From positions 558,001 through 622,000 of the forward strand of contig AP026969.1 of assembly GCA_027923965.1 (NCBI GenBank): a stretch of DNA of 64,000 bases, written 5' to 3'. Made by a program: the position numbers and the translations under genes. The notes beneath the pieces are model-generated. The model searched no databases. It was not told the DNA's origin and saw only the letters and a program-made list of their open reading frames with translations. Position 1 is the stretch's first letter. Each line of letters begins with the position of its first letter. The DNA is from Comamonadaceae bacterium OS-1 (GTDB taxonomy: Bacteria; Pseudomonadota; Gammaproteobacteria; Burkholderiales; Burkholderiaceae_C). Positions 43,615 to 61,763 of the stretch are shown in pieces.

Positions 43615-45405
43615 ATGAGCCCTATGGTTTCTGTTGCCACACGGTACCGCATTCGCCACTGGATGGGCGTGTGGGTGATCGCCTGGATGTGCGTGTGGAG
43701 CAGTGCGGGGTGGGCGGCCGAGGTGCCCGTCGTTGTTTTGGCCGATGTGGCGGGCGGCATGCCGCTGGTGGGCCGCACGGGCCTGCTGGTAGACGAGGAG
43801 GGCGGAATGGACATCACCCGGGTGCGAACGCCTGCCGGCGATGCCCTTTTTACCGTGCCGGGCTGGCTGATCCAGCAGTCCGGTCTGGACGGGCACGCAC
43901 GCTGGTTCAAGTTCCGGCTGCGCCACACGGGCGGGGCGGGCCAATGGTTGATTGACAGCAACCAGTCTGCCGTCCGGGATATCCGGGCGTTTGGCCCGTA
44001 CGACACCCAGGGCCAGGCGCTGGCAGCGCCTGTGGATATTGGCCTCCTGTCGCCGTTGGCCAGGTCTACTTTGGGGGGGAACCGGACCATCTTTCGGTTC
44101 GACCTGGACCGGCCTGGCGATTACACGGTGTACCTGCGGGTGGCATCCGACTTTCCGGAATATTTTGCGTTCACGGCCTGGGATGCCGCGGAATTTGGGC
44201 AGTCCGAGCAGGGCTGGTCTTTGTTCCACGGGGTCTGTTACGGCTTCTTGATCGCCATGGTGACCACCAATCTGGTGCTGTTGTCGGTGTTTCGCGAGTC
44301 CATGTACAGCCACAACTTTCTGGCGAGTACGTTCGCACTGCTGACGCTGACGGCGATCAATGGCCATTTAGGGCGGTATTTTCTGCCGGAGGCCCGGGCC
44401 CTGCTGCCCTACATCCTGGCAGCGGTGATTCCGATGTGGGTATTTTTTGCGGGGCTGTTCAGCCTGCGCTTCCTGGGATTGGAGAACTATGCCCCGCGCC
44501 TGGCCCGGTGGACCCGGCGTACGCTGATGCTGGGGCCCTTGGCTGCGGTACTGGGCCTGATGGGGCAGTTTCACCTGGCGTTGCCCTTGACCCAGTGCAT
44601 TGGTGTGGCGGTGCCCTGCCTGATGCTGCGGGGTGGCACGATTGTTTTGCGCCGCGGGGGCGCACCTGCACGCTGGTATTTCGCGGGTCTGGCCTTGCTT
44701 GATCTTTCGGCGGTGGGCACGGTGCTGAACAACTATGGGGTGCTCAAGCTGTCGTTTCCCTACCTGCTGCTGCAAATGGGTGCCGTGGTGGAGACCCTGG
44801 TGTTTGCCATCGCGATCGGTAGCCGGATACTGCGCATCCACAGGCTCAACGGTGAACTGGGCCTGCGCACCCAGCAGCTCAGCGCGGCCGCGCACACCGA
44901 CCCCATGACCGGCATCTATAACCGCGCGGGCTGGTCCCAGCATGCGCCACGGGTGATCGCCAACGGCGGCAGTGCGGCGGTGTTGCTCATCGACCTGGAC
45001 CATTTCAAGCCGGTGAACGACCACTATGGCCACGCGGCGGGTGACGAGGTGCTGTGCAGCATTGCGAAGCGGCTGGACACCGAGGTGCGGGGCCGGGGCA
45101 TCGTGGCCCGCCTGGGGGGCGATGAATTTGTGGTGCTGTTGTCGGGCACCCACGACACGGGCAAGCTGGCGCGGCAGGCCGAGAACCTGATTCTGCTGAT
45201 GTCCCAGCCGGTGCCGTACCAGGGGCAGCTGCTGCAGGTGGGAGCCAGTGTGGGTATCGCCTGCTACCCGCAGGACGGTGTGGCACTGCCCGATTTGATG
45301 AACGCAGCCGACCGCGCCATGTACCACGTCAAAGAGCGTGGCCGGGCGGGCTATGCCTTTATGGCCGACGTGAACGCCACCGCGCCCGTGCCTGTGCCGG
45401 TTTGA
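43615..45405 (+). CDS. 7TMR-DISM receptor diguanylate cyclase
   Basis: This 596-residue protein has a signal peptide (ending SAGWAA), a periplasmic 7TMR-DISMED2-like beta domain (about residues 40-190) and seven membrane helices (about 205-405). A cytoplasmic GGDEF domain follows (about 425-585), preceded by a short coil. The active site RLGGDEFVVLLSG is intact, as are DPMTGIYNRAGW and LIDLDHFKPVNDHYGH, so it should make cyclic-di-GMP. The inhibitory I-site position upstream of GGDEF reads RGRG rather than RxxD, so product inhibition may be lost. Alone in its transcription unit; the ligand is unknown, probably carbohydrate-like. Confidence 0.9.
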   Translation: MSPMVSVATRYRIRHWMGVWVIAWMCVWSSAGWAAEVPVVVLADVAGGMPLVGRTGLLVDEEGGMDITRVRTPAGDALFTVPGWLIQQSGLDGHARWFKFRLRHTGGAGQWLIDSNQSAVRDIRAFGPYDTQGQALAAPVDIGLLSPLARSTLGGNRTIFRFDLDRPGDYTVYLRVASDFPEYFAFTAWDAAEFGQSEQGWSLFHGVCYGFLIAMVTTNLVLLSVFRESMYSHNFLASTFALLTLTAINGHLGRYFLPEARALLPYILAAVIPMWVFFAGLFSLRFLGLENYAPRLARWTRRTLMLGPLAAVLGLMGQFHLALPLTQCIGVAVPCLMLRGGTIVLRRGGAPARWYFAGLALLDLSAVGTVLNNYGVLKLSFPYLLLQMGAVVETLVFAIAIGSRILRIHRLNGELGLRTQQLSAAAHTDPMTGIYNRAGWSQHAPRVIANGGSAAVLLIDLDHFKPVNDHYGHAAGDEVLCSIAKRLDTEVRGRGIVARLGGDEFVVLLSGTHDTGKLARQAENLILLMSQPVPYQGQLLQVGASVGIACYPQDGVALPDLMNAADRAMYHVKERGRAGYAFMADVNATAPVPVPV

Positions 45406-49252: not shown

Positions 49253-49553
49253 TGCGGATTCCTTGGGTGGGATGTCTGGTGGCCGTGTCGGCGGGTGCCC
49301 GGGCAGGGCCGGGATTCTGCGGTCGCGATGACCCGACCATGGTAAGGCACACCGCCTGCGTCGATGCGAGGGTATTGCGCCCCAATACCCGGGTGCCCCT
49401 CGCAATTGGAGCGCGGGGGCAGGCCAAACGCGCGCCGTCGCAGTAGTTGAAAGCTCTGAACGACCCCATGTTCTACAAATTGAGGTGTTGGCTTCATAAG
49501 TCATCCTCTATTTGGTGGATGGCTGGCCCGCAAAGTCCCGCTATTCTGGGCCG
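49253..49553. other. Divergent intergenic region, no gene seen
   Basis: The 301 bp between the PerM-type and hybrid kinase genes contain no credible coding frame. A GGGTATT/AATACCC hairpin lies at 49370-49390, a possible operator or attenuator. Promoters for both divergent genes must be here; none can be assigned confidently. Confidence 0.6.
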
Positions 49554-51320
49554 ATGGTCACCACCGCGGATAACGCTCATGACTCCATGGATCCAGCCGC
49601 CCAGGTTGCCCAGCAGGAGTTTGTGCGCGACCAGTTTGTGGCCCTGTTCCTCAAGCAAAACAAGCGTGCGCAGGTGGGATTGCTGTGTTGTGCAGGGCTG
49701 GTCTGCGTACTTTTGCTGTACAGAGTGCCAGGGTACTTTGCCCAGTTCTGGATGGCTGGGGTGCTGGTGGTGAGCGGTGCGCGGTTTGTGTGGACGGACC
49801 GTATCGTTGGCCAGGGTGGGGCGGCACCGGCCCGCGTGGGCCAACTCTTGCTGCTCAACGGGGTGTGCCTGATGCTGCCCGTGGCGGCATTCAATTGGTT
49901 TAACGATGTCGACCGGGCCTTTGTCACCATCGTACTCATGGCCACGGCTACGGCATCGGTGGTGACCACCAGCGGGTACCGAGGGATTTTTTTATGGTTT
50001 GCCTCGCCGCTGCTGGTGTCGTTGAGTATTGCATGGGGGGTGGCGGCCGATGTGGGTGATTCTGCTTGGGCCGGCCCCGGCATGGGTGTATTGATTACGT
50101 TGTATTTGGGATTTCTGGTCGGCCTGGGGCGGGATGCGTTTCGCCTGTTTGACAGCTCGTGCCGCATCCGGTTTGCAGAAAACTCGCTGAACCACCGGTT
50201 GACCCTGGCGCTGGAAGAAGCACGGTTGGCCGGGCAGGCCAAAACCCGTTTTCTGGCGGCGGCCAGCCACGATTTGCGCCAGCCCTTGCACACCATTGGC
50301 GTGCTGCTGGCGGCGATGGGCTTGCGCAAACTGGATACCCGCAGCCAGGAGATTGTGCAGATGCTGGGGGTGGTGAGCCAGTCGCTGTCCGGGCAACTCG
50401 ATGGCCTGCTGGATATCTCCAAACTGGATGCGGGCATCGTCCAGCCCGAGCTGAAAGTCCAACGCCTTGACCAACTGGTGCAGGCCCATGTGGCAGTGCA
50501 GGCGGCCATCGCCGAGGACAAGGGCTTGTACATGCGCGCACATTGCAACGCACCGGTGCTGGTGATGACGGATGCGCACCTGGTCCAGCGGGTGCTGGGT
50601 AACCTGACCAGCAACGCGCTGAAGTTCACGACCAGCGGCGGTATCGATGTGGCCCTGACCACCCAGGATGGCCGCGCGGTTCTGGAGGTGGCCGATACCG
50701 GCATCGGCATTGCCCCCGAGCACCAGGTACTGGTGTTCCAGGAGTTCTACCAGATTGGCAACGCGGAGCGCGACCGTTCGCAGGGCCTGGGCTTGGGCCT
50801 GGCTATCGTCCAGCGGATGTGCGGTTTGCTGGGCATCCAACTGCACCTGGAATCAAAGCCCGGACAGGGCAGCCGTTTTACCTTGAATTTGCCGCTGGCC
50901 GAGGCGCCGCCGGTGGAGGCATTGCCTGCGGGTCCGCCGCTGGCCGTGGTGCAGCCGGGCATGGCTGTGCTGGTGGTGGACGACGAGGTGGGTATCCGCC
51001 AGGGCATGCGCTTGCTGCTGGAAGAGCTGGGCTGTTATGCCCTGTTGGCCGACGGAGTGGCGCAGGCGCGGGAGCATGCCCACACGCACAAGATCGACAT
51101 GGTGATTTCAGACTGTCGGCTACGCCATGCCGACACCGGGTTTGACGTAGTGCGCCAGGTGCGTGATGTGCACCCTTGCGCCTACGCCTTGCTCATCAGC
51201 GGTGATACCGCTCCCGACCGGCTGCAGCAGGCGCAGGCCGAGGGCATCCCCATGTTGCACAAACCCGTGACACTCGCTGCGCTGTTGGCGCACATCCACC
51301 AAGCAAGGCCACTCTCATGA
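49554..51320 (+). CDS. Membrane hybrid histidine kinase with C-terminal receiver
   Basis: This 588-residue sensor has about six membrane helices (residues 40-205) without a sizeable periplasmic domain, which suggests sensing within the membrane. The dimerisation helix carries ASHDLRQPLHTIG with phosphoacceptor His239. The ATPase domain has NLTSNALKFT, DTGIGI and a SQGLGLGLAIVQRM lid. A C-terminal receiver (about 475-588) has the phosphoacceptor Asp520 in VISDCRLR and Lys in LHKPVT. There is no HPt domain, so signal relay needs another protein. Its stop overlaps the start of the 1933-residue fusion enzyme (ATGA), implying a dedicated sensing role for that enzyme's substrate or product. The start could alternatively be ATG 49587. 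Confidence 0.88.
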   Translation: MVTTADNAHDSMDPAAQVAQQEFVRDQFVALFLKQNKRAQVGLLCCAGLVCVLLLYRVPGYFAQFWMAGVLVVSGARFVWTDRIVGQGGAAPARVGQLLLLNGVCLMLPVAAFNWFNDVDRAFVTIVLMATATASVVTTSGYRGIFLWFASPLLVSLSIAWGVAADVGDSAWAGPGMGVLITLYLGFLVGLGRDAFRLFDSSCRIRFAENSLNHRLTLALEEARLAGQAKTRFLAAASHDLRQPLHTIGVLLAAMGLRKLDTRSQEIVQMLGVVSQSLSGQLDGLLDISKLDAGIVQPELKVQRLDQLVQAHVAVQAAIAEDKGLYMRAHCNAPVLVMTDAHLVQRVLGNLTSNALKFTTSGGIDVALTTQDGRAVLEVADTGIGIAPEHQVLVFQEFYQIGNAERDRSQGLGLGLAIVQRMCGLLGIQLHLESKPGQGSRFTLNLPLAEAPPVEALPAGPPLAVVQPGMAVLVVDDEVGIRQGMRLLLEELGCYALLADGVAQAREHAHTHKIDMVISDCRLRHADTGFDVVRQVRDVHPCAYALLISGDTAPDRLQQAQAEGIPMLHKPVTLAALLAHIHQARPLS

Positions 51321-54300
51321 ACCCCACCCCGCCTGACACCCCAGCAGCAGATTCGATGGACACCAACCGCCGCACGCGATCGCTGTCCCAGGGGCTGGTC
51401 GATCTGCAAGACCGTGTATGTGAAGACCCGAAGCTGGTATTTGACGTGGTGATCGTCGGTAGCGGCTACGGCGGCAGTGTGGCGGCCCAGCAGTTGGCGG
51501 GTTTGCGGCACGGCAATAAGAACCGCGAGCTCCATGTCTGCGTGCTGGAGCGGGGCAGCGAGTACCTGCCGGGCATGTTTCCCACCAGCTTTGCCGATCT
51601 GCCAGGCCATGTGCGCTGGGGTGCGCAAGGCACGGGCCAGGTATCGGGTACGCCGGAAGGCCTGTTGGACGTACGTGCCGGTGGCGATGTGTCCGCCCTG
51701 GTGGCCAACGGATTGGGTGGTGGGTCTTTGGTGAATGCCGGCGTACTGCTGGCCCCCGAGTTTGCCCAGTTTGACAGTCGGATGCCGCCAGAGGTGGTGA
51801 CGGACTTGCAAAACACCTACCTTGGGGCTGCACGGCAACTGCTGCTGCAAGACCCTCTGCAGAGCGGCGGCGGTCCTAACACGGTTCAGAGCGATGCCTG
51901 CTTTTCCCCCGCCTACCCATTAAAGTACCACCGATTGGCAGAGTTGGCCGAACGGCAAAGCCCGCAATTGGACCACGGCGCTGCCGAAATCACGGTGGCC
52001 ATGCAGGACATTGCCCCCCACGCGCACAGCGTGGGCCTGGCCAAGTGCAATGGCTGTGGCGACTGCATGACCGGCTGCAACGTCGGGGCCAAAGCCTCTT
52101 TGGACACCAATCTGTTGGCACAGGCCAAGCGCGGTGGAGTGCATATCTACACCGGTACCAGCGTGGTGGGCATGTCGCGCATAGACGACCGGTGGATGCT
52201 GGAGTTGGTCCACACCGCACCGGCTTTGCGGGCCCGCGAAGCCCAGCCGTTTTGCCTGTTGTCGGAAAATGTGATCTTGGCGGCGGGTACGCTTGGCTCT
52301 ACCGAAATTTTGCTGCGGTCTCGGCGCGAGGATTTGGTGTTTTCCAGCATGCTGGGGCAGCGCTTTTCTTGCAATGGCGACAACATTGCCGCCGTGCATC
52401 GGCTAAAAGATCCGGCCCACAGCACGGACGAAGAACACAAGGCGCTGCACCTGCGCAAAGTGGGCCCCACCATCACCCACATGGTGGAGGTACCCCCGCA
52501 GCAAGTGCCTAAAACGCAGGTCAAGGCATTGGGTTTTTGGGTGCAGGAGTTTTCGGTGCCCGCGCCGCTGCAGCGTCTGTTTGCCGAACTGGTGACCACT
52601 GGCCACACCATAGCGCAACTACCCAAGCCCGATACCACGCGCCACGGCGGCGAACCTGCTGGTCACACCGACCCCTGCGCTGTGGATGCGCGAGCCATGG
52701 AGCGCACATTGCTGGTGGGGCTGATCGGCCACGACAGTTCGGACGGGGCGTTGCATTTGCCTCTGGCAGCCGCCAAGCGGGACGGGTGGGGTGTCCAGGA
52801 AGGGGTGCTGCAAATCGTTTGGCCCCAGGCCCGCGATGGGCAGCAACTGGATGCTGCGCATGATCTATTGAAGTATTACTGCACCAAGGCATTTCCTGGC
52901 GCAAATGTGATCCCCAACCCTCTGTGGCGGCTGTTGCCGACCGAATTGGCCGACTTGGTAAACCAACCGCGTGGCCCCGTGCTGACGGTGCACCCCCTGG
53001 GGGGCTGCCCGATGGGCAAGAACAAGAATGAAGGTGTGGTGGACGACCTGGGCCGTGTCTTCAACTGCGGTAACGCCAATGAGGACGATTGGCAGGGCAG
53101 TTTGGTGGTACTGGATGGCTCCATCGTACCCGGCTCCCTGGGGGCCAACCCGGCCCTGACCATCAGCGCCCTGGCCCTGCGCGCCATACAGGCATTGGCG
53201 CAGAAGTGGAACTATGTGAAAAAGCCGATTGACAGTAGCGGTCCACTGCACCGTCCCCGCTTTGCGCCAGCCCAGCCCGCGACTACACAGGTACCCGAGC
53301 CGACCCAGGTCGAGGTGGTCGAGCGCCTGGTGGGCGAGGTATTTCTACATGCGGAAACAGACAAGCCCACGCCCTGGGTGGTGGAACTCACCTTGTACTA
53401 CGAGCAGGTGGCACTGCGGCAACTGATGGATACCTGGGGTGGCCGCTGCATAGCGCTGGATGAAAAAAGATCGTGCATCCGCCTGTTTCGCGCTGATCAG
53501 TGGCACCAAAAATTGTTGCGCGTGCAAGACGATGTCGCCAAGGCGCAGTATGTGGTGTGGACCGCGCCGCTCTCGGGCACGCTGAAGTTTTTGCACCGCG
53601 AGCGCTCGGGGCCGTTGTTGCGCAGGCTGCGGGCGCTGCGGGCCTACCTGTGCAACCGGGGCAAGCGGGACATATGGCAAAAATATGCCCCCAAAATTGC
53701 AGACTACTTCCGTCCTTCGGTGCCCCAAACCCGCCCGCGTGGGGCCCGAACCGGCGAAAACACACCCTATATGTTTACCAACGCATGGAACCTTGCTTCG
53801 CGTGCGGGCGAAGTTCGGCGGTTTGACTATGCCCTGAGGGTCGAGCCACCCGGCGAAGGACTCGTGTTTACGCTGGGCAGCGGGGGCGCAATCCTTCGGG
53901 GCCACAAGCGCCTGACCTATGGCCGCCGGGCCAACCCCTGGAACCAACTGACCCAGCTCACGCTGACCCAAATGCCCTTCATGCCCGCAGGGCACACCGC
54001 CGTGCTGAAGCTGGATACCCGATTCCTCGCGAATCAAGGCGTACCCTTGGTGCGGGTAGTAGGGCAAGCCAACCAGGTTCGTGCGCTGCTGGACATGGCC
54101 TCGTTTGGCATCTTCATGGCGCGGCTCATGCTGAGCATCCATTTGTGGACCTTTCGCAAACCCGATACGCCGCCGACCCGCAAGCCGCAACGTTTGCCCA
54201 TGGCCATACCGGGCCTGCCCGCACCCGAGATCACCGAGCTGGTCGTATCCGTCAAGTACCTGCGCACCGACGCCGTTGTGCGGCTAACCCGCTACCCCCA

Positions 54301-57118
54301 CCACGGCAGCGCGCTGCCCCCCTTGGCCATGGTGCACGGCTACAGTGTCAGCGGCACCACTTACACCCACCCTTCGCTCCAGCCCAGTGCGGCAGAGTTC
54401 TTTTGGCGGCAGGGGCGTGATGTGTGGGTGATTGACCTGCGCACCAGCGCGGGCATGCCCACCGCCAAACGCCCCTGGGCGTTTGAAGATGCGGCCCTGG
54501 TGGATATTCCGACAGCCTTGCTGCACATCAAAAACGTCACCGGGCAACGGGTCGACGTGCTGGCCCATTGCATAGGCGCTGCCATGTTGAGTATGGCCAT
54601 CCTGACCGAAGCAGCCAAAGTGCGCAACGACACGATCCAACTGGGTGTGAATTCATGGCTTACGGCGCAACATCTGGGCACCCTGGCGGCCTTCAATGGC
54701 GACGGCAACGGCAATGCGCAGCACCCTACGATCCGCAGTATCGTGCTCAGCCAAAAAGGGCCCTTGTTGCGCTACACCGAAGCCAACATCTTCCGCACCT
54801 ACCTCCTGCAGACCCTCAGGCGTTGGTTTTTCCAGGACGGCTACCAGTTCCAGGCCTCTGAAACCCCCAAGGTTGCCGAGCAACTGATGGACCGCCTGCT
54901 GAGCTCCGTACCGTACGAAGACGATGAATACGATGTCGAAAACCCTGGCTGGCCCTGCGATACCGCGTCCTGGACCAGTACCCGCCACCGCATGGACATC
55001 TTGTATGCGCGCGATTTTCAGGCGAAGAACCTGCGCCCCGCCACGTTGGACGCGCTGGATGACCTGTTTGGGCCCATCCACCTCGACACCGTGGCACAAA
55101 CCATGCACTTTGTGCGCTTCAACTGCATCACCAACCAGCGAGGCCGGGGCGAATTCGTAACGCTGGAAAGCTTGACGCAGCGTTGGCGCGGTATTCCCAC
55201 CTTGGCCATCCATGGCCAGAAAAACGGTCTGGTCGATGTATCCACCCAAGACCTGTTGCAGGCTAATTTCGAGGCTGCGGGCATTCCATTTGATCGCAAG
55301 ACCTATGAAGGCATGGGCCACCAGGACGTGATCATCGGGAAGGATTCGGAACGGGTTTTTAAAGACATTCAGGACTTCCTGGCAAACCCACCTACTGTCG
55401 CCTCATCGCCCGCCACCGCCCTGGCCAGGTCATCGGGCGCGTGGGTCCTGGCGCGTCCCTGGATCGGTCCACGCATCGTTCCCACATTGGGTAACTTGCA
55501 TGTCTACGCCATGTCTACGCCGCGATTTGGCAATGCGCGGCTTATCTTGGTGCCGGTGTGCGGCTTTCCTGGCAGGCCGAGCCGCTGCGGTGCAGTGGAA
55601 TATTCGCCCCTAGGGTGCCGTAGTAGCGACTGGCTCAATTTGAAATTACCGCTCCCTTCGTTAGATCCATCCTTCCAGGGCTGGCTGGCTGTTGTGGCCT
55701 ATGGCCTCAGCCAGACCAGCATGCGTGAAGTTGATGCACCGGATCACCGTGCCCGCCGCGACGCGGCGCCTGCGCCGGTCGGCAAAGTGGACAGGGCATA
55801 TTCCCCCGTGGGCCCGAACGATGTCACTCTGAACTACCATTTGACGCTGGGTGATGGCCATAAGACGGGCGTGGGGGCATTTTTGGCGCACATGGCCACC
55901 AGGAATGTGCAGGATGCTGCGGTGGAACAACCCACCTTTAAAGATGTGGACACCTGGCTGGAAAAAACAGACGAGGACTTGCCCAGCTGCTTCATCGCGA
56001 ATGCCGATGTTGTCCGCTACCGCCGCACTGGGAAAGCCGCGTTTGACTTCACGCTCGGAAGTTGCCAGTTTCCCCCGGGCCTGGTGGACAAACAGGTGGC
56101 CGAACAGTCGCTCAAGCAATTGGCAGAAGGCCTGGACCACTACGACTTCGCCATTTTTGCAGGTGACCAGATCTACGCCGATGCCAGCGCGGGGCTGGTC
56201 GATCCGGTGCGCAGCGACGAGCGTTTCGATCTACCGTATGAGCGGGCGTTGCGGGCCCAACCCATGCGTGAAATCATGCGCCGCGCGCCCGTTTACATGC
56301 TGCTGGACGACCACGAAATACGTGACAACTGGGAGCCGCGTTTTGAGAACGACGTGACGGAGTATCGGCGCGACGGGGCGCTGAAAGGCCGCCACAACTC
56401 CAAGGCCTTCAAGGAGGCGATGGCGGCCTATTGGAAGTACCAAAGGCCGGGAAGCCCGCCCCAGCCCAGTGCCTCCTACACCTTCGCGCATGGCCAAACT
56501 GCGTTTTACCTGCTGGACACCCGCTCGCAACGGGCTTACCGCAAACCCGCCGAATCGCAGTGCGCTGAGTTGTTTCCGAAAGCGGAAATGAAAAAACTGA
56601 AGGCCTGGATACGTACCAACCGGTCCGCGCTGAAGTTCATTGTCTCGCCCTCCATGCTGGTGCCACGCGGCTTGGCGCAGCGCAACCTGGGCCTGGACGC
56701 TGCCGCACGGGCTGATGCCTGGGATGGCTACCCTGCCACCATGGGATTGCTGCTGGATGCGGTTGTGGAGAGCGGTGCGGACAACATCGTTTTTCTGTCG
56801 GGTGACGAACACGTGTCGTGCGTGGTGCAGGCCACTCTGTGCAAGCCCGGGTGCCCGTCGCGCAAGATCGTCTCCATCCATGCGTCTGGCCTGTATGCCC
56901 CATTTCCCTTTGCCAATTCAAAAGCCGAGGATTTTGTTGACGGTGTGGACAGCTTTGTATCGGGTGCGGTGACCTGCCAGACGATAACCCGGTTCGTTCC
57001 GCCGGGCAACATGTTCGCCCAGCTGTCGGTGTACTTCGACCCCTTCGTCCCCCGCCTGGACGTGCGATTTTTGGGGCAACACACCGATGTGTCGCACCAA
57101 AACCTGTTTAACTTCTGA
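51317..57118 (+). CDS. Three-domain fusion: GMC oxidoreductase, alpha/beta hydrolase, PhoD-like phosphatase
   Basis: This single uninterrupted 1933-residue protein has at least three enzyme modules. Residues ~40-630 are a cholesterol-oxidase-like GMC flavoprotein: FAD loop VGSGYGG (48-53), GGGSLVNAG, the active-site region HPLGGCPMG (559-567), and a cysteine cluster C244-x2-C247-x2-C250-x3-C254. Residues ~665-995 form an unrecognised, partly beta-rich connecting region. Residues ~1000-1355 are an alpha/beta hydrolase with oxyanion MVHGYS, an AHCIG elbow (Cys1085 replacing Ser), Asp1307 and His1335. Residues ~1570-1925 are a PhoD-like metallophosphatase (LGSCQF, AGDQIYAD, LLDDHEIRDNW, LSGDEH). 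No signal peptide or clear membrane helix is seen. It is translationally coupled to the kinase upstream. Separate two-domain relatives are known to me; the substrate and the logic of the triple fusion are unknown. Confidence 0.87.
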   Translation: MNPTPPDTPAADSMDTNRRTRSLSQGLVDLQDRVCEDPKLVFDVVIVGSGYGGSVAAQQLAGLRHGNKNRELHVCVLERGSEYLPGMFPTSFADLPGHVRWGAQGTGQVSGTPEGLLDVRAGGDVSALVANGLGGGSLVNAGVLLAPEFAQFDSRMPPEVVTDLQNTYLGAARQLLLQDPLQSGGGPNTVQSDACFSPAYPLKYHRLAELAERQSPQLDHGAAEITVAMQDIAPHAHSVGLAKCNGCGDCMTGCNVGAKASLDTNLLAQAKRGGVHIYTGTSVVGMSRIDDRWMLELVHTAPALRAREAQPFCLLSENVILAAGTLGSTEILLRSRREDLVFSSMLGQRFSCNGDNIAAVHRLKDPAHSTDEEHKALHLRKVGPTITHMVEVPPQQVPKTQVKALGFWVQEFSVPAPLQRLFAELVTTGHTIAQLPKPDTTRHGGEPAGHTDPCAVDARAMERTLLVGLIGHDSSDGALHLPLAAAKRDGWGVQEGVLQIVWPQARDGQQLDAAHDLLKYYCTKAFPGANVIPNPLWRLLPTELADLVNQPRGPVLTVHPLGGCPMGKNKNEGVVDDLGRVFNCGNANEDDWQGSLVVLDGSIVPGSLGANPALTISALALRAIQALAQKWNYVKKPIDSSGPLHRPRFAPAQPATTQVPEPTQVEVVERLVGEVFLHAETDKPTPWVVELTLYYEQVALRQLMDTWGGRCIALDEKRSCIRLFRADQWHQKLLRVQDDVAKAQYVVWTAPLSGTLKFLHRERSGPLLRRLRALRAYLCNRGKRDIWQKYAPKIADYFRPSVPQTRPRGARTGENTPYMFTNAWNLASRAGEVRRFDYALRVEPPGEGLVFTLGSGGAILRGHKRLTYGRRANPWNQLTQLTLTQMPFMPAGHTAVLKLDTRFLANQGVPLVRVVGQANQVRALLDMASFGIFMARLMLSIHLWTFRKPDTPPTRKPQRLPMAIPGLPAPEITELVVSVKYLRTDAVVRLTRYPHHGSALPPLAMVHGYSVSGTTYTHPSLQPSAAEFFWRQGRDVWVIDLRTSAGMPTAKRPWAFEDAALVDIPTALLHIKNVTGQRVDVLAHCIGAAMLSMAILTEAAKVRNDTIQLGVNSWLTAQHLGTLAAFNGDGNGNAQHPTIRSIVLSQKGPLLRYTEANIFRTYLLQTLRRWFFQDGYQFQASETPKVAEQLMDRLLSSVPYEDDEYDVENPGWPCDTASWTSTRHRMDILYARDFQAKNLRPATLDALDDLFGPIHLDTVAQTMHFVRFNCITNQRGRGEFVTLESLTQRWRGIPTLAIHGQKNGLVDVSTQDLLQANFEAAGIPFDRKTYEGMGHQDVIIGKDSERVFKDIQDFLANPPTVASSPATALARSSGAWVLARPWIGPRIVPTLGNLHVYAMSTPRFGNARLILVPVCGFPGRPSRCGAVEYSPLGCRSSDWLNLKLPLPSLDPSFQGWLAVVAYGLSQTSMREVDAPDHRARRDAAPAPVGKVDRAYSPVGPNDVTLNYHLTLGDGHKTGVGAFLAHMATRNVQDAAVEQPTFKDVDTWLEKTDEDLPSCFIANADVVRYRRTGKAAFDFTLGSCQFPPGLVDKQVAEQSLKQLAEGLDHYDFAIFAGDQIYADASAGLVDPVRSDERFDLPYERALRAQPMREIMRRAPVYMLLDDHEIRDNWEPRFENDVTEYRRDGALKGRHNSKAFKEAMAAYWKYQRPGSPPQPSASYTFAHGQTAFYLLDTRSQRAYRKPAESQCAELFPKAEMKKLKAWIRTNRSALKFIVSPSMLVPRGLAQRNLGLDAAARADAWDGYPATMGLLLDAVVESGADNIVFLSGDEHVSCVVQATLCKPGCPSRKIVSIHASGLYAPFPFANSKAEDFVDGVDSFVSGAVTCQTITRFVPPGNMFAQLSVYFDPFVPRLDVRFLGQHTDVSHQNLFNF

Positions 57119-57131
57119 ATAGGTGGTGGGA

Positions 57132-57776
57132 CTACCCCGGTGCGTGCACCAACCCCAAAAACGCCGATCGGTACACCGCTTCGGTGCGGTTGTGTACGCC
57201 CAAAGCGCCCATCACTGCCGCCACATGGCTACTGACGGTGGTATCGGAAATGCCCATCTCGCGCGCAATCACCTTGTTGGGCTTGCCCTGGATGACCCTG
57301 GCTAGCACCTCCCGCTGGCGTGGCGACAGATGCACCGGCAGTGGTCTGGACGGGCGCGTGCCGGTGCCCAGATCCATGATGCTGCTCGGGGGCAGGTAGG
57401 TTTGGCCACTCAACACCTTTTGCATTGCCTCGAACAATGCGGCCATGGAGGAGGCTTTGGGCACAAACGCCATGGCGCCATGCTGGATGCACTCGCGGAT
57501 ATGCATGGCATTCTCCTCGGCAGACACCACTACCACCGGCACCGCTTCATGGAGTTGCTTGATGCGTTGCATGCCGTCAAAGCCCTGGGCATCGGGCAAA
57601 TGCAGGTCCAGCAGTACCAGGTCAAAGGGCCCACTGGCCGCCAAAGCCCGCGCCACGGTGGTGGCGGTGGTAATCTGCGAACCGGGGGACAGTTCGTGTA
57701 ACAACATGCATAGCCCGTCGCAGAAAAGCTGGTGGTCATCCACCAAAAGAATGCGCATGGTGCTAGAGGTTTGCAT
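57132..57776 (-). CDS. NarL/LuxR-type response regulator
   Basis: This 214-residue regulator has a receiver domain (about residues 5-122: ILLVDDHQLFCDG, phosphoacceptor Asp in VLLDLHLPDA, VVVVSAEE, FVPKAS) and a LuxR helix-turn-helix (about 145-210: LSPRQREVLARVIQGKPNKVIAREMGIS, quoted in part). It is convergent with the giant fusion gene, 13 bp from its stop, and is the only free regulator beside the hybrid kinase. It is therefore the likely output partner, inferred from position. The ATG at 57776 has a GGAGA 7 bases upstream; Met7 is an alternative. Confidence 0.88.
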   Translation of the reverse strand: MQTSSTMRILLVDDHQLFCDGLCMLLHELSPGSQITTATTVARALAASGPFDLVLLDLHLPDAQGFDGMQRIKQLHEAVPVVVVSAEENAMHIRECIQHGAMAFVPKASSMAALFEAMQKVLSGQTYLPPSSIMDLGTGTRPSRPLPVHLSPRQREVLARVIQGKPNKVIAREMGISDTTVSSHVAAVMGALGVHNRTEAVYRSAFLGLVHAPG

Positions 57777-57860
57777 TGCTATTCTCCGTGCGGGAATCGT
57801 GGACCTGATCCGTTGCATTGTGCCCGTATTCGCTGGCTTTCTGGGCGTATGGTGATCGGT

Positions 57861-57925
57861 GATTGCTATCAAATATGTAGCTCATCATGCTCGTAGAATA
57901 AGCGCTAGAGCCATATTTAATCTAA
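57861..57925. repeat. Dispersed repeat copy upstream of the truncated haemoglobin gene
   Basis: GATTGCTATCAAATATGTAG, CTCATCATGCTCGTAGAATA, AGCGCTAGAGCCATATTTAA. It occupies the gap between the divergent regulator and haemoglobin genes, so it lies in the promoter region of both. Confidence 0.7.
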
Positions 57926-59624: not shown

Positions 59625-61763
59625 ATGGAAATGGGCAGCACGGGGGAACGTAGGGATGGCACGGCGGTCTGGTCCCAGACCCTGCAGCGCCTGCGCCTGT
59701 GGTTGCAAGCGATTAGGGAAGCCTACGTAGCCCTGCTGCCGGTCACGGTGCTGGGCGTCATGGGCAACACCTTGGCGCAGATGCCGTACCCGCCATATGT
59801 GCAATGGATGAATGCCCAGTTTGGCCCGGGCTGGCACGCCACGGCCATGCTGCTGTACTACGCCACCCTGGGCACGATGGGACTGATGGGCACGGTGGTG
59901 ATTGCCGCCCGCACCACCACCCTGAGCCGGGCCCAGGACCGGCGGGTGGACCGCTCCATCGTCACCGTGTCCATGGTGGCGGCCAGCGCTTTTTTGCTGG
60001 TGGTGCTGCGCGACCCGCCCGATTTTCAGGTGTTGGGCTATGCCAGCGCGTTCCAGAGCATCATTGTGGGTGTGGCCGCCGCCGAGCTGATGCGCCTGCT
60101 GGGCCGCTGGCTGCCCAGCCATACCACCATGGCTGGGGTGGACGGTGGCGTGTCGCTGCAGAGCGCCCTGCACATGACCGGCACGGCGGCCCTGACGCTG
60201 CTGGCCGTCTGGCTGGCCCATGGGCTGTGGCGGGGTTTGTCGGACGCGGTGGTCTGGCCGCTGCTGGGGCAGGGGTGGCAATGGTTTTTGCAGCTGGGGC
60301 CGAGTGGAGACGTGCTCAATTTCGGCATGGTGCTGCTCAACCAGCTGCTGTGGATGGTGGGTGTCAATGGTGGGCAGTTTTTGTATGCAGTGTCCAGCGC
60401 CTCGGGTTTGGTGGCCCCGGCCACTGCCCTGCATTCCGATCAACTGATCTCGCTGATGTTCCTCAACACCTTCGTGCACAACGGCGGGGCGGGTGCCACC
60501 TGGGGCCTGATCCTGTACTGCGTCACCCAGGGCAAAGATACGTCGTTACGGCGGCTGGCCTGGTACTCGGTGCTGCCCGCCCTGCTGAACATGAACGAGC
60601 TGCTGCTGTTCGGTATTCCGCTGGTGCTCAGCCGCACGCTGCTGCTGCCGTTCATCGCCGCGCCGCTGCTGAACTGCCTGATTGCCACCCTGGCCTATTC
60701 GGTGTTTGGCATGCCGTTGGACGGCCAGCCGGTGATCTGGTCCACGCCGGTGTTCGTGTCCGGCTACCTCATGTCCGGTGGCTGGAGCGGCGTGGGCGTG
60801 CAAGCCCTGTGTTTGCTGTGCAGCACCCTGGTGTACGCCCCGTTTGTGCGCCAGCTGGAAAACGCGCGCATGCAGCGCAACCAGGCGTTTTTCAAGTCGG
60901 CGCTGGACGTGCTGATGTCCCCCGAGGTAGAAACCCAGACCGGGGCCCTGGACCGGGCGGACGCGGTGGGTGAGGTGGCCCGCTGCCTGGTGCGCGACTT
61001 CCGGGCCGACATCGGCTCCTCGCGCGTCACCCTGGCCTACCAGCCCCAGCACGACGCCCAGGGCCGGGTGGTCGGGCTGGAGTCGCTGCTGCGCTGGACC
61101 CACGCCAGCCACGGCCCGGTGCCCACCGCCGCCCTGATCAACGTGGCCGAAGAATGCGACCTGATCCACCACATCGGAGCCTGGGTGGTGCAGCGGGTGT
61201 GCGAAGACCTGGCCGTGTGGCAAAAGGCGGGCTGCATCGCAGACACGGGCTTCACCGTGTCGGTCAACATGTCGCCGGTGCAATTGCAATCCGCCACCTG
61301 GGTGCAAACCGTGGCCGATGCCCTGCGCACCCACGGCATCCAGAGTAAAGACATCGACATCGAAATCACCGAAGGTCGCACCATCGCCAACACCGCCCAG
61401 GCCGACAAAACCCTGGCCGAGCTCCAGGCCATGGGCTTGTCGCTGTCGATGGACGACTTCGGCATGGGCTGTACCTCGCTGCTGTACATGCACCGCTTCA
61501 AGGTCCACGCCATCAAGCTCGACGGCGTGCTCACCCGCAATGTGCTGCACAACCCGGTAGACCAGGACATCATCCGCTGCGTTTGCCGCCTGGGCCATTC
61601 CCAGGGCGTGTACGTGGTGGCCGAATTCGTCGAACAAGCCGCCCAGCGCGACATGCTGCAAGCCCTGGGCTGTGACTTCTTCCAGGGCTGGCTATACAGC
61701 CCGGCCATGCCCGCGGACAAGGTGCCGATGTACCTGAAGGCCTGGCACAAGGCGACGCAGTGA
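59625..61763 (+). CDS. PTS EIIC-like membrane domain fused to EAL phosphodiesterase
   Basis: This 712-residue protein has N-terminal residues ~30-425 resembling a cellobiose-type PTS EIIC permease, about ten helices with LLNQLLWMVGVNGGQFL and LMFLNTFVHNGGAGATWG. C-terminal residues ~455-705 form an EAL domain. The EAL signature is ESLLRW (Glu486), and the other catalytic residues are present: NMSPVQL, EITEGRTI, MDDFGMG, IKLDG, AEFVEQ and FQGW. It should therefore hydrolyse cyclic-di-GMP. No EIIA or EIIB is fused or adjacent, so the permease part may act as a sugar sensor rather than a phosphotransferase. GAGG lies 8 bases before the ATG. Confidence 0.88.
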   Translation: MEMGSTGERRDGTAVWSQTLQRLRLWLQAIREAYVALLPVTVLGVMGNTLAQMPYPPYVQWMNAQFGPGWHATAMLLYYATLGTMGLMGTVVIAARTTTLSRAQDRRVDRSIVTVSMVAASAFLLVVLRDPPDFQVLGYASAFQSIIVGVAAAELMRLLGRWLPSHTTMAGVDGGVSLQSALHMTGTAALTLLAVWLAHGLWRGLSDAVVWPLLGQGWQWFLQLGPSGDVLNFGMVLLNQLLWMVGVNGGQFLYAVSSASGLVAPATALHSDQLISLMFLNTFVHNGGAGATWGLILYCVTQGKDTSLRRLAWYSVLPALLNMNELLLFGIPLVLSRTLLLPFIAAPLLNCLIATLAYSVFGMPLDGQPVIWSTPVFVSGYLMSGGWSGVGVQALCLLCSTLVYAPFVRQLENARMQRNQAFFKSALDVLMSPEVETQTGALDRADAVGEVARCLVRDFRADIGSSRVTLAYQPQHDAQGRVVGLESLLRWTHASHGPVPTAALINVAEECDLIHHIGAWVVQRVCEDLAVWQKAGCIADTGFTVSVNMSPVQLQSATWVQTVADALRTHGIQSKDIDIEITEGRTIANTAQADKTLAELQAMGLSLSMDDFGMGCTSLLYMHRFKVHAIKLDGVLTRNVLHNPVDQDIIRCVCRLGHSQGVYVVAEFVEQAAQRDMLQALGCDFFQGWLYSPAMPADKVPMYLKAWHKATQ

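Follow-up and report, generated by a model that had tools for sequence, protein, structure and literature searches.

Cholesterol oxidase, as represented by the Streptomyces structures 1b4v and 3gyi, is a single enzyme. The alpha subunit of the flavin adenine dinucleotide (FAD) dependent glucose dehydrogenase of Burkholderia cepacia (BcGDH), in which a 3Fe-4S cluster is held by Cys212, 218 and 222, is accompanied by a hitchhiker protein and an electron-transfer subunit. Iron-sulfur (Fe-S) GMC dehydrogenases including the fructose dehydrogenase of Gluconobacter are another close comparison. Lysosomal acid lipase and the gastric lipases have a Ser nucleophile. PhoD is a secreted enzyme, and the export signal of PhoD phosphatases is that of twin-arginine translocation (Tat). 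In the window, by which we mean the whole analyzed stretch of 64,000 nucleotides of Comamonadaceae bacterium OS-1 (contig AP026969.1, positions 558,001 to 622,000), a GMC oxidoreductase domain, a folded inter-domain region (LNK), an acid-lipase-like alpha/beta-hydrolase domain and a PhoD-like metallophosphatase are joined in one gene (Table 1). This fusion is a widespread enzyme unit, for which no description was found in the literature searched, rather than a lone oddity.

Three enzyme domains on one chain

The original prediction had claimed a polypeptide of 1933 residues that unites three enzymes, which is borne out by the uninterrupted frame (ATG to stop, zero internal stops), the Pfam matches and the fold model. 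All motifs named there are found in the translation, GSGYGG at residues 48-53, HPLGGCPMG at 559-567, the elbow AHCIG at 1083-1087 and AGDQIYAD, LLDDHEIRDNW and LSGDEH of the PhoD part, and the active-site motifs of the three enzyme types are conserved according to Pfam, the folds and the alignments of the relatives. At E ≤ 1e-3 the fusion was matched by 986 of 7985 scored candidates, and counts out of 120 refer to the 120 listed of these matches. A chance frame or an artefact of the gene caller was rejected, since the first 26 listed relatives (P0002-P0027) exhibit 51-56% identity across 98-100% of the query. The host genome (single contig, 5.12 Mb, 99.99% complete) contains one copy of the fusion. 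The Cys motif of the GMC part, the Cys nucleophile, the N-terminus that is not signal-like, the split relatives and the linked two-component genes, all described below, go beyond the original prediction.

With 30.9 bits for GMC_oxred_N (cut-off 23) and 42.1 bits for GMC_oxred_C (cut-off 24.6) the N-terminal domain belongs to the GMC superfamily, and a fold search with the predicted model returned cholesterol oxidase and Fe-S FAD dehydrogenases as its nearest folds. The aligned stretch of cholesterol oxidase is free of Cys, whereas the fusion carries a Cys quartet that is complete in 120/120 listed relatives. Owing to this conserved C-x2-C-x2-C-x3-C motif an Fe-S cluster is assigned putatively, and the sequences suggest that the motif holds it. 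The spacing is unlike that of the three BcGDH ligands. The position of the motif was set by alignment to cholesterol oxidase only.

A role as sterol-ester or steroid catabolic enzyme, in which the sterol would be freed from its ester by the lipase part and oxidized at its 3-hydroxyl by the GMC part, with a phosphorylated form as the target of PhoD, appears distinctly unlikely to us. Several relatives are named cholesterol oxidase in their source records, but the NCBIfam profile of cholesterol oxidase (NF058674) yields 119.7 bits where the cut-off is 850, every row counted has Cys in place of the lipase Ser, the Cys motif likewise departs from the sterol-active relatives and the N-terminus is not signal-like. 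Furthermore, the genome contains no match to SQHop_cyclase_N (squalene-hopene cyclase) and thus nothing that points to hopanoids made by the cell itself as substrate, for which reason a hopanoid link was rejected. The broader proposal of a lipid-like substrate gains indirect support from the nearest folds in the predicted models, namely cholesterol oxidase, the Fe-S FAD dehydrogenases and lysosomal acid lipase.

For the hydrolase part the Pfam score of the window fusion lies below the threshold (Abhydrolase_1, 17.1 bits, cut-off 25.8), yet the alpha/beta-hydrolase fold is clear in the predicted model. Fold search places it in the acid-lipase fold, nearest to the lysosomal and gastric acid lipases, and its profile matches gastric and lysosomal lipases as well; precomputed Pfam annotation marks a hydrolase in some fusion relatives and in most entries of a second listing of relatives. 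The residue that aligns with the catalytic Ser of the lipases is Cys1085, and this elbow position is Cys in 27/27, 120/120 listed and 116/116 distant relatives and Ser in none counted, so that the nucleophile of the acid lipases is lacking. The domain thus differs from the lysosomal and gastric lipases in having Cys for Ser, in being bacterial and fused, and in that no signal was seen. That the Cys hydrolase transfers acyl groups like a polyhydroxyalkanoate (PHA) synthase, as part of an acyltransferase or polymer-type enzyme whose other domains shape or trim the product, is highly improbable in our estimation; the curated profile of PHA synthase (PhaC) gave 14.6 bits against a cut-off of 622.65.

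The C-terminal domain is a member of the PhoD family (Pfam PhoD 80.4 bits, cut-off 27), and the chain of Bacillus subtilis PhoD (2yeq) aligns with the predicted model from model residue 410 onward; in the N-terminal part of the PhoD-like unit the model confidence is low at residues ~1472-1534. In contrast to B. subtilis PhoD the PhoD-like part here is without a signal-like N-terminus. By a hydropathy rule, which is crude, such an N-terminus occurs in 0/120 listed relatives, and the hydrophobic peaks of the window fusion are modest. Likewise, the split PhoD proteins, whose starts were guessed, reach a hydropathy peak of at most 1.65, below the limit of 1.9 for an export signal. As its N-terminus is not signal-like by hydropathy, the fusion enzyme is probably cytoplasmic.

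A linker domain at ~665-995 had been left unassigned in the original prediction. A folded domain was indeed found at ~660-945, but from ~970 on the residues belong to the hydrolase. In the predicted model LNK is mostly beta with long helices and with a mostly high predicted local distance difference test (pLDDT), and does not resemble a loose spacer. Searches of Pfam and of the PDB sequences gave no credible match, and a known domain was rejected on these grounds; an internal repeat was unsupported by profile comparison, and the list of the fold search was filled by the GMC domain, spanning residues 21-634. LNK is also present in the split proteins, whose frame is PhoD-less. When compared with the linker found in short GMC-hydrolase proteins, LNK gave a profile E of 0.00085 at a probability of just 9.6%, and a G-x-K ... 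W ... T-L pattern is common to both by eye. The sequences suggest that the two linkers may be one old common domain.

Table 1 Features of the fusion gene and of the adjoining regulatory genes in the window.
Feature	Coordinates	Strand	Extent	Basis
GMC - linker - alpha/beta-hydrolase - PhoD fusion	51317..57118	+	1933 aa	translated frame, Pfam, relatives
GMC FAD oxidoreductase domain	51437..53224	+	residues 41-636	Pfam, model, fold
Probable Fe-S cluster site	52046..52078	+	C244-x2-C247-x2-C250-x3-C254	conservation in relatives
Folded inter-domain region (LNK)	53294..54196	+	~residues 660-960	beta-rich model
Acid-lipase-like alpha/beta-hydrolase domain	54209..55396	+	~residues 965-1360	fold, profile match
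Nucleophile elbow AHCIG	54563..54577	+	Cys1085	Cys conserved
PhoD-like unit, N-terminal part	55436..55996	+	~residues 1374-1560	model
PhoD-like metallophosphatase catalytic domain	56042..57076	+	residues 1576-1920	Pfam, motifs, fold
Hybrid histidine kinase (hydrophobic sensor - HisKA - HATPase_c - REC)	49512..51320	+		Pfam, hydropathy
NarL/FixJ-type response regulator (REC + LuxR helix-turn-helix), convergent with fusion	57132..57872	-		Pfam

Distribution and fused or split states

The length of the relatives is 1870-2140 residues in 117/120 listed, and PhoD is listed in 118/120. In the same family, 35 of 299 genomes match the fusion at E ≤ 1e-50. At E ≤ 1e-30 matches were obtained in 10/369 genomes of the class sample and 6/299 of the phylum sample, both of which contain the query genome and share some genomes with other samples; many of these matches are GMC-hydrolase proteins without PhoD. 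Carriers include Polaromonas, Roseateles, Rubrivivax, Massilia, Aquabacterium and plasmids of Ensifer, the latter accounting for the match of 7 of 14 plasmid records, and a search of genome contigs yielded L002 as the one relative of full length, besides two that are partial. The relatives were deposited under single names such as cholesterol oxidase, alkaline phosphatase D family or alpha/beta fold hydrolase. No description of the GMC-hydrolase-PhoD architecture was found in one library of open-access full texts, subscription papers and preprints lying outside this scope. This is consistent with the original prediction, in which no described pathway was known for it. As far as their available parts extend, PMC6719666, PMC12997753 and PMC9603970 do not describe the architecture, PMC10710014, PMC10607838 and PMC5371717 are unrelated to it despite shared words, and the GMC oxidoreductase of PMC12542777 is a separate glucose-oxidizing subunit enzyme, unrelated to the fusion. 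A defence system was considered and rejected, since PADLOC did not match the fusion and matched its neighbours only weakly.

For the analysis of gene order 51 loci were collected, made up of 37 stretches from 34 other genomes of the family, L002, L086-L093, L096-L099 and the window. The core was usable in 48 of them (L052, L053 and L070 were left out), some being near-copies or paralogues in one genome. Among the 48 loci PhoD is fused in frame in 18, encoded by the next gene in 18 and missing in 12, among them L069, which stops at a contig edge. On a quick unrooted tree 5 changes are required for the fused label and 6 for the split one, while shuffled labels average ~15; the minimum imposed by the strongly supported branches is 4 and 6 changes, respectively, and both forms alternate across the tree. 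Outside the 48-locus count, L117 is a split pair from another class of the phylum, and no PhoD match was found in L118 and L119. PhoD has been kept next to the oxidoreductase-hydrolase gene through fusions and splits, which is good evidence for a shared pathway.

Two loci show further arrangements. In the split case L039:11217-13107 PhoD-like sequence lies in two frames behind the GMC-hydrolase gene, either decayed or affected by a sequencing error, and in L119:2309-7598 a lone GMC protein stands directly ahead of a GMC-hydrolase fusion, resulting in two tandem GMC genes.

The adjoining kinase and the proposed unit

The stop codon of the hybrid histidine kinase overlaps the ATG of the fusion by 4 nucleotides (probable kinase ATG at ~49554), and the kinase N-terminus exhibits five hydrophobic peaks. 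Among the 36 PhoD loci the kinase lies directly upstream on the same strand in 29 (frames within ~300 nucleotides), in frame in 1 and elsewhere nearby in 1, and is absent from 5; among the 12 PhoD-less loci it is upstream in 1 (L069, at the contig edge), nearby in 1 and absent from 10. The enzyme occurs in 35, the kinase sensor domain in 29 and both in 20 of the 299 family genomes (Fisher p 2.9e-15, kinship ignored). Relatives of the NarL/FixJ-type regulator also adjoin the unit in several other loci. NahK/ErcS and ErdR are the closest named types, both window proteins scoring below the curated cut-offs (NF041832, 259.3 against 400 bits for the kinase; ErdR, 116.9 against 390 bits for the regulator), and no NCBIfam match was obtained for three sensor N-termini and no credible Pfam match for five.

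Observed are the architecture, the conservation of the active-site motifs in all three enzymes, the repeated fused and split states and the close linkage to one kinase type. Beyond these we lean modestly towards an interpretation as a cytoplasmic multi-step enzyme, part of a conserved unit of sensor kinase, with or without LuxR regulator, GMC oxidoreductase, Cys acyl enzyme and PhoD. The GMC part would oxidize a bulky hydrophobic alcohol at a hydroxyl and pass the electrons through an Fe-S cluster to an acceptor and not straight to oxygen. The Cys1085-His1335 pair would form an acyl-thioester intermediate, which is then hydrolyzed or handed to an acceptor, and the PhoD part would act on the same lipid-like molecule, or on a linked one, by removing a phosphate or opening a phosphodiester. 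This chemistry would be under the control of the two-component system or would inform it. The unit would thereby act on a hydrophobic substrate by oxidation, de- or trans-acylation and dephosphorylation. That three catalysts, each of a known kind, stay together across fusions and splits and beside a single kinase type points to a pathway not yet recognised, with steps that may be readable from gene order. The chain also combines an acid-lipase fold of Cys type with a GMC enzyme that probably has an Fe-S relay.

Several observations weigh against the multi-step enzyme of a conserved unit. Three other genomes of the same genus gave no match at E ≤ 1e-50. At the residue level, His1855 of PhoD is His in 118/120 close relatives and in 19/116 of the distant set, the putative catalytic Asp1307 is Asp in 117/120 and 51/116, respectively, and Cys247 is replaced in 5/116 of the distant set. 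In another set the Cys motif occurs in just 8 of 28 proteins, these 8 being the ones listed with GMC_oxred_N and the other 20 apparently being without this part. The kinase is missing at the PhoD loci L063, L088 (which starts inside the gene), L090, L096 and L097 and from the split pair L117, and in one GMC-hydrolase clade of 12 rows PhoD lies beside the gene in 1 and a kinase nearby in 1. Finally, 9 of the 29 genomes with the sensor domain are without an enzyme match at E ≤ 1e-50, and an exclusive assignment of the kinase to the enzyme was rejected on this basis. The enzyme was seen in none of ten kinase stretches, taken from these nine genomes and from G067, which has enzyme and kinase at separate places. 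Of the ten, L100 and L104 run out of contig immediately after or within the kinase, and L106 has no more than a short kinase frame, close to the end of its contig.

NahK/ErcS-like kinases are tied to alcohol oxidation in the ped cluster of Pseudomonas, and partner proteins are thought to modulate such kinases, YiaY in the case of PP_2683 (an ErcS homologue) and NosP in the case of NahK, according to PMC12997753. Therefore, plain control of an alcohol-oxidizing pathway and enzyme-partner sensing are both reasonable. In a single-contig genome, that of Aquabacterium sp. J223 by the matching protein record (L038:6003-13331), the kinase and all three enzyme domains share one frame of 2443 codons, deposited as a 2377-aa protein and the sole such fusion among the 120 entries of the second listing of relatives. 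An insertion or deletion in this record is possible, since the nearest relative in that listing (1808 aa, 88% identical over 59% of the region) is without kinase domains.

These data bear on a signal module, a reading that we consider unlikely. A lipid-like signal would be made, destroyed or reported by the enzyme, and the membrane kinase next to it would serve as receptor or partner, in the manner of an enzyme co-sensor or of a synthase/receptor pair. Such a module is consistent with the kinase being upstream or in frame at 30/36 PhoD loci, with the co-occurrence in the 20 family genomes, with the natural kinase-enzyme frame and with the partner modulation of the NahK/ErcS type, but the fused case is one among the 120 of the second listing and may reflect the record, kinases of the same type adjoin other genes too and ordinary transcriptional control explains the linkage equally. 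A self-contained sensing-processing module, in which turnover, substrate or product of the three-step, lipid-acting enzyme sets its own membrane kinase and which at least one genome has fused into a single polypeptide, is in our view unlikely. If the kinase does respond to the enzyme, the unit would be an instance, open to test, of an enzyme that serves as sensor.

Other genes beside the unit and the kinase

In Ensifer L097:7657-11667 the place of the kinase is taken by a divergent neighbour, a protein with class III cyclase and AAA_16. In two genomes (L105:7476-9761 and L109:9429-11003) it is a CYTH-CHAD protein, not the enzyme, that comes after the same kinase type. Within the window, a protein encoded a few genes upstream (43615-45405, forward strand) links a 7TMR-DISM sensor with a GGDEF diguanylate cyclase, and a phosphotransferase system (PTS) EIIC membrane domain is combined with an EAL cyclic di-GMP phosphodiesterase in one protein (59625-61763, forward strand).
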